From Candidatus Obscuribacterales bacterium (lineage in GTDB: Bacteria; Cyanobacteriota; Vampirovibrionia; Obscuribacterales; Obscuribacteraceae): a stretch of 64,000 nt of DNA. The notes below the pieces were generated by a model. It searched no databases. It was given only the letters and a program-made list of their open reading frames with translations, and was not told the DNA's origin. The translations under genes were made by a program, and so were the position numbers. Shown one piece after another: positions 16,088-20,000 of the stretch (positions within the stretch are counted from its first letter, which is position 1; each line of letters begins with the position of its first letter). The stretch covers positions 1 to 64,000 of the forward strand of contig JAIETE010000004.1 in assembly GCA_019745505.1 (NCBI GenBank). Reading direction: 5' to 3'.

Positions 16088-16115
16088 GAAAAAGGACGCT
16101 ATTGAGGCGTCCTTT
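16088..16115 (-). terminator. Rho-independent terminator of atpD-clpP-atpC unit
   Basis: A perfect nine-base stem (AAAGGACGC/GCGTCCTTT) with a seven-base loop is followed on the minus strand by a T tract. It lies 47 bases past the atpC stop. Confidence 0.8.
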
Positions 16116-16161
16116 CAGTAGGTGATTTTTCGAGCTGGCTGGAAGACTACTTTGGGGAAAC

Positions 16162-16596
16162 CTAGCGGTTGTGTCCGCCTTTTCTTCTCTTGGTGAGTTC
16201 CACAGCTTTGAGACGGGCCATCGCTCTGGACAAGGCCATCTCGGCGACCTGCACGTCGATCTTGTCTGTTTTTTGAGTTCTTTCTGCTTCCAGACGAGCT
16301 TTTGCCTGATTGGCTCTGGCTTCGTCGATTTCAGTGTCGAGTTCTGCAACGTTGCTGACGATAGTGACGTTGTTGTCTTGCACTTCCATGACACCACCGA
16401 TGACGGCAGCGGTATCGAAGGATGATTCGCCTTTGAACTCAACAATGTCGATTGCCAGTGCAGTTACGAGCGGTTCATGCTCTGGCAGGATTGTCAGTTC
16501 GCCGTCGACTGCTCGGGCGGTAACTTGTTTTACCGGCGCTTCGAAAACGATGCGATCCGGAGTGATGATTTTTAGATTTAGCGTGCCAGCAGTCAT
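16162..16596 (-). CDS. atpC: F1F0 ATP synthase epsilon subunit
   Basis: Epsilon subunit of the F1 sector, which couples the rotating stalk to the catalytic head and can inhibit ATP hydrolysis. It has 144 residues. The N-terminal beta sandwich shows the usual blocks: LNLKIITPDRIVFEAPV, GELTILPEHEPLVTAL, and IGGVMEVQDNNVTIVSNVAE. The C-terminal helical hairpin is present (DEARANQAKARLEAER... EMALSRAMARLKAVE) and ends in a basic tail. GAGGACG precedes the ATG, 15 bases after the stop of the ClpP-like gene. Epsilon normally follows beta directly; here a protease-like gene lies between them. A terminator follows. Confidence 0.95.
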   Translation of the reverse strand: MTAGTLNLKIITPDRIVFEAPVKQVTARAVDGELTILPEHEPLVTALAIDIVEFKGESSFDTAAVIGGVMEVQDNNVTIVSNVAELDTEIDEARANQAKARLEAERTQKTDKIDVQVAEMALSRAMARLKAVELTKRRKGGHNR

Positions 16597-16611: not shown

Positions 16612-17337
16612 TTACTTGCTTTTCTTTGCTCTTGCAGTTTTCTTCTTAACTGCAAGTGCCGATGCCACTTTCTGTTGTTTTACACCTTTGACTGTTGATT
16701 CAGCAATCAAATCCAGCCCTTTGCGATCGTGATTCTTGTGATTTGAATTGGTCTTTTCGCTTTTGCTCTTCTTCTTGTGGGTGCAAATGCGATCGATCAT
16801 TCCGTATTCAAGAGCTTCTTGAGCGGTCATATAATGATCGCGTTCGATGTCCTTACGAAGTCGCTCGCGGCTCTGTCCTGTGCAGCGATGCAAAACTTCT
16901 ATCTGAGCGTTGCGAAAGCGCTGTCCCTGAGCGGCTTGAATTTCCAGGTTGGTGATGTCTCCATCTGCTTCCCAGAGCGTCTGGTGGAACATCAAGGTAG
17001 AGAATTCATATGCCGAACGCTCTCCGGTGCCGGCTGCCAAAATTTCGCAGGCACCGGAAAGAGCGTGACCGAGGCAGATGGTGTTTACCTTCGCTTCGAT
17101 CTGAGACATTATGGCGATTATGGCGTCTGCGTTATATCCGTTGCCGCCTGAAGAATTGATGTACAGATTGATCGGTTTTGTCGGATCGCTCTGATTCAGT
17201 TTCAGGATGCGTCGAATGACCGGCAGCGCCACCTCGTTTTCCAGCCGACCAAAGACAAAGATGTCTCGATTGCTCGGTTTGGGAGCCGCAGGTGTTTGCG
17301 GTTTTTCGCTATTAGCTTCCTGATTCTTCTTTTTCAT
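16612..17337 (-). CDS. ClpP-like serine protease with basic C-terminal tail
   Basis: 241 residues of the ClpP/crotonase fold. The catalytic triad of ClpP appears intact: Ser94 (GHALSGA), His118 (LMFHQT) and Asp167 (ERDHYM, followed by AQEALEYGMIDRI). The oxyanion-loop region INSSGGNGYNA is also present. A 20-residue Pro/Lys-rich N-terminal extension and a Lys-rich tail of about 55 residues beyond the family core are unusual; the tail may block or replace the normal axial contacts with a Clp ATPase (inference). The gene lies between atpD (30-base gap) and atpC (15-base gap) on the same strand, so all three are almost certainly co-transcribed. No clpX or clpA is nearby. A divergent paralogue of housekeeping ClpP is the likeliest identity. 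Confidence 0.88.
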   Translation of the reverse strand: MKKKNQEANSEKPQTPAAPKPSNRDIFVFGRLENEVALPVIRRILKLNQSDPTKPINLYINSSGGNGYNADAIIAIMSQIEAKVNTICLGHALSGACEILAAGTGERSAYEFSTLMFHQTLWEADGDITNLEIQAAQGQRFRNAQIEVLHRCTGQSRERLRKDIERDHYMTAQEALEYGMIDRICTHKKKSKSEKTNSNHKNHDRKGLDLIAESTVKGVKQQKVASALAVKKKTARAKKSK

Positions 17338-17367: not shown

Positions 17368-18840
<1,473 letters not shown>

Positions 18841-18941: not shown

Positions 18942-20000
18942 GTGTCCCCTCATAAATCATTCGTGGACTCTCCTAAATCAGCGGCTCGACTAAAAAGGCT
19001 TCATAAACGGAATATCACGCGACGCCTGTTGCGCGATATCGGCGCGGTCGCAGTGCTTGTGTTGATAGGCACTTGCGGGTTTATGGTCATCGAGCATTGG
19101 CGTGTTCTGGACGCCTTGTTTATGACGGTTATCACTCTCACGACGGTTGGTTACGGAGAGGTCAGGCCGCTGACCGACACCGGAAAAATCTTCGCAATGT
19201 TTGTAATCTTTGCCGGCGCCTCGACTGTCGTGTATGTGCTTGGCGACATGGTAGAACTGTTTGTTAGTTTCAACTTCGAGCTCAGGCGCATGAAAGAACA
19301 GATTGCCAAACTCTCGGATCACTACATTGTTTGTGGCTGGGGCAGAACAGGTCAAGAAGTAACTGAGCACTTCATGGTCAAGAAAATCCCCTTTGTCGTT
19401 GTCGAGGCGGACCCGGTGCTGGCCAGGCGCGCGCGGGATGCTGAGCTACTTGTCATCGAAGGCGATGCGACATCCGACGATATTCTCCTTCAAGCACAGA
19501 TTAAGACTGCCGCAGGCGTAATTTGCTGTCTTCCGGATGATGCCGCTAATACATTTATTGTGTTGTCTGCCAAGGAACTCAACAGCAATGTAACTATCGT
19601 GTCAAGAGCTGCCAACCCGGGCTCTGAATCCAAGCTTCGCAGGGCGGGGGCGAGTATGGTCATTTCTCCGTATGTAATCGCTGGGCGAAGAATGGCTACG
19701 GCTGTCACTCATCCGCTTGTAACCGAATTTCTCGACGTGGTAATGCACGCTCCTGAGTATGACTTGCGCATTGACCAGGTGAACCTCGGCGCCAATTGTC
19801 TGCTGGTCGGAAAGTCTTTAAAGGATGCAAATATAAAGCAACAGTCTGGGGCGATGATCTTGGCACTAAATCAAAGTGGTAAGCTGATAACCAATCCGCT
19901 GCCGGACCAAGTGTTTTGTAGCGGAGATATCCTGATCGCGCTGGGAACGGAAGAAGAGCTAAAGAAGCTCGCAGCGCTGGCGGGTATCCGTCCGGATTAG
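18942..20000 (+). CDS. Potassium channel with RCK (TrkA-N/TrkA-C) domains
   Basis: A 352-residue K+ channel subunit of the two-helix type. Membrane helices lie at about residues 30-50 and 75-100. They flank a pore loop with the K+ filter TLTTVGYGE near residues 64-72. A cytoplasmic RCK domain follows: HYIVCGWGRTGQEV is the dinucleotide-binding glycine motif, with an acidic residue ending the next strand (VVVEAD). A C-terminal TrkA-C domain (YDLRIDQVNLGANCLLVGKSL) completes the gating ring. Ligand-controlled K+ flux is expected. The start is a GTG without a clear ribosome site, so the N terminus is uncertain by some residues. It diverges from atpD with 137 bases between. Confidence 0.9.
   Translation: MSPHKSFVDSPKSAARLKRLHKRNITRRLLRDIGAVAVLVLIGTCGFMVIEHWRVLDALFMTVITLTTVGYGEVRPLTDTGKIFAMFVIFAGASTVVYVLGDMVELFVSFNFELRRMKEQIAKLSDHYIVCGWGRTGQEVTEHFMVKKIPFVVVEADPVLARRARDAELLVIEGDATSDDILLQAQIKTAAGVICCLPDDAANTFIVLSAKELNSNVTIVSRAANPGSESKLRRAGASMVISPYVIAGRRMATAVTHPLVTEFLDVVMHAPEYDLRIDQVNLGANCLLVGKSLKDANIKQQSGAMILALNQSGKLITNPLPDQVFCSGDILIALGTEEELKKLAALAGIRPD

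Follow-up and report, generated by a model that had tools for sequence, protein, structure and literature searches.

A ClpP-type paralogue encoded between the ATP synthase beta and epsilon genes of Obscuribacterales

The window analysed here (the whole stretch of 64,000 nucleotides, from a 6.7 Mb MAG of a Candidatus Obscuribacterales bacterium) carries three genes in succession on its minus strand: atpD, a clpP-like gene, and atpC (Table 1). Genes for the beta and epsilon subunits adjoin very widely among bacteria, and also in plastids; here, 30 bases separate atpD from the clpP-like gene, and 15 bases separate the clpP-like gene from atpC. A ClpP-like gene at this position, gaps of these lengths, and one shared terminator had all been proposed in the original prediction. 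The coordinates proved right and reproduce both gaps; the product scores 147.6 bits against Pfam CLP_protease, above the cut-off of 20.2 (E=4.8e-43); and a strong hairpin with a U-tract lies past atpC, with no terminator-like site found in a minus-strand scan of the unit itself. A simple promoter scan returned a sole minus-strand match, at 16451-16422 within atpC, and a match count at chance level. Co-transcription of atpD-clpP-atpC is a well supported prediction, given the close spacing of the genes, the ATG/stop overlaps seen across many genera, and the single terminator.

Table 1. Features of the atpD-clpP-atpC unit in the window
Feature	Position	Strand	Basis
ClpP-like serine peptidase paralogue, 241 aa	16612..17337	-	Pfam match; triad S94/H118/D167; without N-terminal hairpin or helix A
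atpD, F1 ATP synthase beta subunit	17368..18804	-	Pfam PF00006/PF02874
atpC, F1 ATP synthase epsilon subunit	16162..16596	-	TIGR01216, 107.8 bits (cut-off 67.25)
Intrinsic terminator 3' of atpC	16090..16116 (about)	-	-13.9 kcal/mol, z=-5.06, then U-tract
Short low-complexity N-terminal tail, residues 1-23, where ClpP has its axial hairpin and helix A	17269..17337	-	Alignment
C-terminal tail, Lys-rich and variable, residues ~188-241	16615..16776	-	Alignment; mostly low pLDDT

The atpD of the window is the only beta gene found in the source genome; the other genome match, just 25%, falls in the atpA-atpG region on contig C13. Since the beta and epsilon genes are on contig C1, the alpha/gamma locus is on a separate contig. 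The operon is therefore of the atpBE (beta-epsilon) type, with atpD and atpC in one unit apart from the alpha/gamma locus. Divergent from atpD lies a gene for a TrkA-type K+ channel (window 18942-20000). Near the K+ channel gene, a small conserved gene and then a more distant lysS often follow.

The arrangement recurs throughout the order, whose members are cyanobacterial relatives that do not photosynthesise. A collection of 84,980 genomes yielded 45 named atpD-clpP-atpC loci, and the trio is intact in all 44 for which both flanks are visible; in the 45th (L074), the contig begins within the clpP-like gene, so that only the atpC side is visible. A second genome search gave the same arrangement at 30 of 30 loci, a set that overlaps the first. 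All 45 loci come from Obscuribacterales MAGs or cluster with them, and both families of the order are covered. The presence of the same trio at 45 named loci, including some on multi-hundred-kb and megabase contigs, rules out misassembly and contamination. Loci with 60-94% identical copies bear the names Candidatus Obscuribacter phosphatis, Candidatus Obscuribacterales, Candidatus Melainabacteria, and others.

Counted by genome, an orthologue is present in 48 of the 53 genomes of the order, and in 25 of 25 genera. The five genomes without a clear orthologue gave no atpD either (the atpD search returned nothing at all from them), and the same query worked in 15 sister-order genomes. A plain atpD-atpC pair was seen nowhere within the order. 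The intergenic gaps range across the order from -4 to 61 bases, and overlap of ATG and stop codons is frequent, in many genera. MAGs titled Proteobacteria, Chloroflexi, and Actinobacteria (L049, L055, and L059) also carry atpD-clpP-atpC of the Obscuribacterales type; clustering with Obscuribacterales loci suggests that these titles are probably submitters' mislabels.

The source genome contains four further ClpP-family genes, including a standard tig-clpP-clpX cluster; the canonical ClpP gene lies ~120 kb off on the same contig. Because this standard cluster exists elsewhere in the genome, the atp-linked ClpP is an extra paralogue, distinct from the housekeeping ClpP. According to the original prediction, a functional link with ATP synthase would fall if related genomes had plain atpD-atpC and this were the only clpP copy. 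As it turns out, relatives within the order share the clpP insertion, and a second, standard clpP accompanies clpX.

Other members of the family deserve mention. A genus-level ClpP paralogue (C2:22447-22986, L002; also L151, L163, and L164) has its catalytic Ser replaced by Ala (GQAAAMGA) and its His by Arg (LMRQP); this catalytically dead, ClpR-like protein falls among Obscuribacterales ClpP rather than with the ClpR of cyanobacteria. Two more divergent ClpP-like proteins are encoded in the genome (C59:28530-29009, L004; and C35:10066-10617, L005).

Residues S94, H118, and D167 of the atp-linked protein align with S97, H122, and D171 of E. coli ClpP, and are invariant in alignments of 22 and 42 orthologues; the intact triad read from the window alone is thus a property of the whole aligned group. 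About 65 columns do not vary across the 42 sequences; among them are those of the triad, the oxyanion Gly-Gly, the ERD motif, and the handle, whose signature reads WEA.GDIT.LEIQA.QG. The triad points to peptidase activity, in a protein that would be catalytically competent. An AlphaFold model (mean pLDDT 73.5) has much of the core at pLDDT >90 and the handle poorly modelled; its nearest solved folds are ClpPs (Foldseek E=1.9e-18, probability 1.00). The gene is under strong purifying selection: dN/dS against three same-genus relatives is 0.05-0.13 for the whole gene and about 0.02-0.08 for the core, with looser tails. The corresponding values for atpD, 0.04-0.07, are close.

Canonical ClpP (MEROPS S14; E. 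coli, B. subtilis, and Coxiella 3q7h) shares the fold, triad, GG oxyanion motif, and ERD motif, with ~40% identity over 164 residues. In contrast to canonical ClpP, the atp-linked protein lacks the axial hairpin and helix A, has a partly altered pocket, and displays an invariant WEA.GDIT in the handle; its gene lies in an ATP synthase operon rather than adjoining clpX. Its score against TIGR00493, the canonical ClpP equivalog, is 129.1 bits, which does not reach the cut-off of 308.6. Cyanobacterial ClpR (PRK12552) offers another comparison, being likewise a second-type ClpP paralogue from the same phylum. However, ClpR has lost its catalytic triad, whereas the atp-linked triad is intact; the two form separate clades, and the PRK12552 score of 118 bits misses the cut-off of 263.

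The original prediction stressed Lys/Pro-rich ends unlike those of ordinary ClpP. The window protein does have such ends, but they do not define the group: the C-terminal tail, often basic, varies from 3 to 75 residues across the order. A part of such variable length cannot be essential, and the Lys-rich tail, nearly absent in some members, was rejected as the key feature. Judging by the alignment, the more telling difference, absent from the original prediction, is the loss of the N-terminal hairpin (the ClpP pore gate) together with helix A; the alignable part starts right after helix A. A wrong start that hides the N-terminus was also considered and rejected: an in-frame stop closes the window frame 8 codons upstream of the start (open frame, 249 aa), and the frames of some second-family relatives are only 181-194 aa.

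The altered positions fall in what we take to be the hydrophobic unfoldase-docking pocket (IGF loops). There, F49, Y60, F82, F112, and L114 are replaced by K, N, Q, S, and Y, respectively, and Y62, I90, and L48 are kept, although some of the altered positions also vary in canonical Obscuribacterales ClpP. Without helix A and a gating hairpin, the atp-linked protein probably provides no docking for ClpX or ClpC on its own apical face, and substrates are unlikely to enter that face from either unfoldase. The axial loop is reported to be required for ClpX recognition, and Chlamydia trachomatis ClpP1, which lacks the loop, does not bind ClpX (PMC9823225). Together with P. aeruginosa ClpP2, this protein resembles the atp-linked one: the catalytic core is kept, and the axial loop is lost or nonfunctional for ClpX recognition (PMC9823225). 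The atp-linked protein differs from both in that helix A is missing as well, and in that its gene lies in atpD-atpC, not in a Clp locus.

Searches beyond the order place bounds on the origin of the insertion. No orthologue was found in 329 other genomes of the class at E<=1e-45, and in a phylum sample of 386 genomes, at E<=1e-36, only the source genome and one canonical-type ClpP (L157) passed. Among 15 genomes of sister orders, none has a ClpP gene near atpD; atpC directly follows atpD in 6, and the remainder are without atpC in the visible stretch, which in two cases stops at a contig edge. Because both families carry the gene and outside orders are without it, the insertion most likely took place in the order's common ancestor. 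In several sister-order families, atpC is unlinked from atpD (L082, L083, L085, L086, L087, L090, and L095).

A 62-sequence tree joins the atp-linked proteins in a single clade with a very long stem, separate from canonical ClpP, cyanobacterial ClpP3, and ClpR; the clade appears in every bootstrap tree (support 100/100), and some other branches are long and of unsure placement. Two mobile sources were considered and rejected: recent gain from a phage or plasmid, whose best matches are ~43% identical and cover the core only; and a phage ClpP-like head maturation protease (NF045542, 74.6 bits against a cut-off of 120), given the conserved chromosomal context. Literature searches found no earlier description of an atp-linked ClpP. 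It is a new, clade-specific ClpP variant in an unexpected operon.

These features suggest a model, favoured here but held tentatively, in which the middle gene of the conserved atpD-clpP-atpC unit encodes an order-specific ClpP-type peptidase that clears unassembled beta and epsilon. The protein would be made together with both subunits, its translation being coupled to that of beta in many genera; it would degrade any beta or epsilon left unassembled, and so keep F1 biogenesis clean. With the alpha and gamma genes at a separate locus, the two subunit sets could drift out of balance, and a need for orphan-subunit clearance is plausible. Substrates might arrive by either of two routes: the protein's own ring could take unfolded or nascent chains directly; or it could stack on a canonical ClpP ring, which would dock the unfoldase. 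No order-specific C-terminal feature that might hint at a shared degron was seen on beta or epsilon.

The strongest outside support comes from the Chlamydomonas chloroplast, where Clp takes part in degradation of unassembled beta-CF1 (PMC6681370). By analogy, a role in ATP synthase assembly or turnover is plausible here, the likeness being the proposed ClpP activity toward orphan beta. However, the chloroplast enzyme is a general Clp protease, whereas the present candidate, proposed from genes, would be a dedicated co-operonic paralogue. What stands of the originally predicted link between proteolysis and ATP synthase is its genomic basis: the predicted co-transcription, the order-wide arrangement, and a standard clpP elsewhere. 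The functional role itself we infer. A more specific form of the model, in which a self-compartmentalised protease is dedicated to ATP synthase, freed from AAA+ unfoldases, and made in step with F1-beta, disposing of or processing unassembled F1 subunits and balancing the two unlinked clusters, seems rather unlikely.

A protease gene fixed order-wide between the beta and epsilon genes is a rare pointer, in genome anatomy, to ATP synthase quality control, a process in which plastids are known to employ Clp. Moreover, a ClpP that keeps its active site intact yet has lost its gate and docking end provides a natural test of ClpP function in the absence of an AAA+ partner.

It is possible, if on the unlikely side, that the protein serves instead as the second subunit of a general hetero-tetradecameric Clp (ClpP1P2-like), stacked on a canonical ring that alone docks ClpX/ClpC; the operon would then give steady high expression, and the substrates would not be F1-specific. 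Cyanobacteria assemble mixed ClpP1P2 and ClpP3R cores (PMC7966870). Their clpR and clpP3 genes adjoin, however, whereas the canonical clpP-clpX genes, present in this genome, are ~120 kb from the atp-linked gene. The catalytically dead ClpP of the same genus makes mixed rings likely in the lineage, and the axial-loop loss recalls the case of C. trachomatis ClpP1, to which ClpX does not bind (PMC9823225); but the handle, at the ring-ring interface, is far from canonical (W122-E123-A124 versus G-G-Y/A).

Distinctly unlikely is a paralogue with an unrelated housekeeping role, trapped in the ancestral beta-epsilon operon since leaving would break an essential operon. The tree indicates one origin, as such a passenger would have. 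Gene order in the region also changes rather little: the K+ channel gene persists ahead of atpD in 31 loci (about 37 examined loci have >3 kb upstream), and part of the trio's conservation may therefore reflect general stability of the region. Genes downstream of atpC are nonetheless freely reshuffled across loci, yet the trio is never broken, and translational overlaps recur across many genera. Finally, a ClpP-fold protein that assists F1 assembly as a scaffold or chaperone, without proteolysis, is very improbable: the lost docking end, the often basic tail, and the adjoining F1 subunit genes would suit it, but a scaffold would be expected to lose its catalytic residues, as did cyanobacterial ClpR and the dead ClpP of the genus, whereas every aligned orthologue retains the catalytic Ser, His, and Asp along with the oxyanion glycines.

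A further observation concerns the epsilon subunit. In three same-genus relatives (L036, L037, and L038), its beta-sandwich domain carries an insertion of ~29 aa; the epsilon encoded by the window's atpC is without it.
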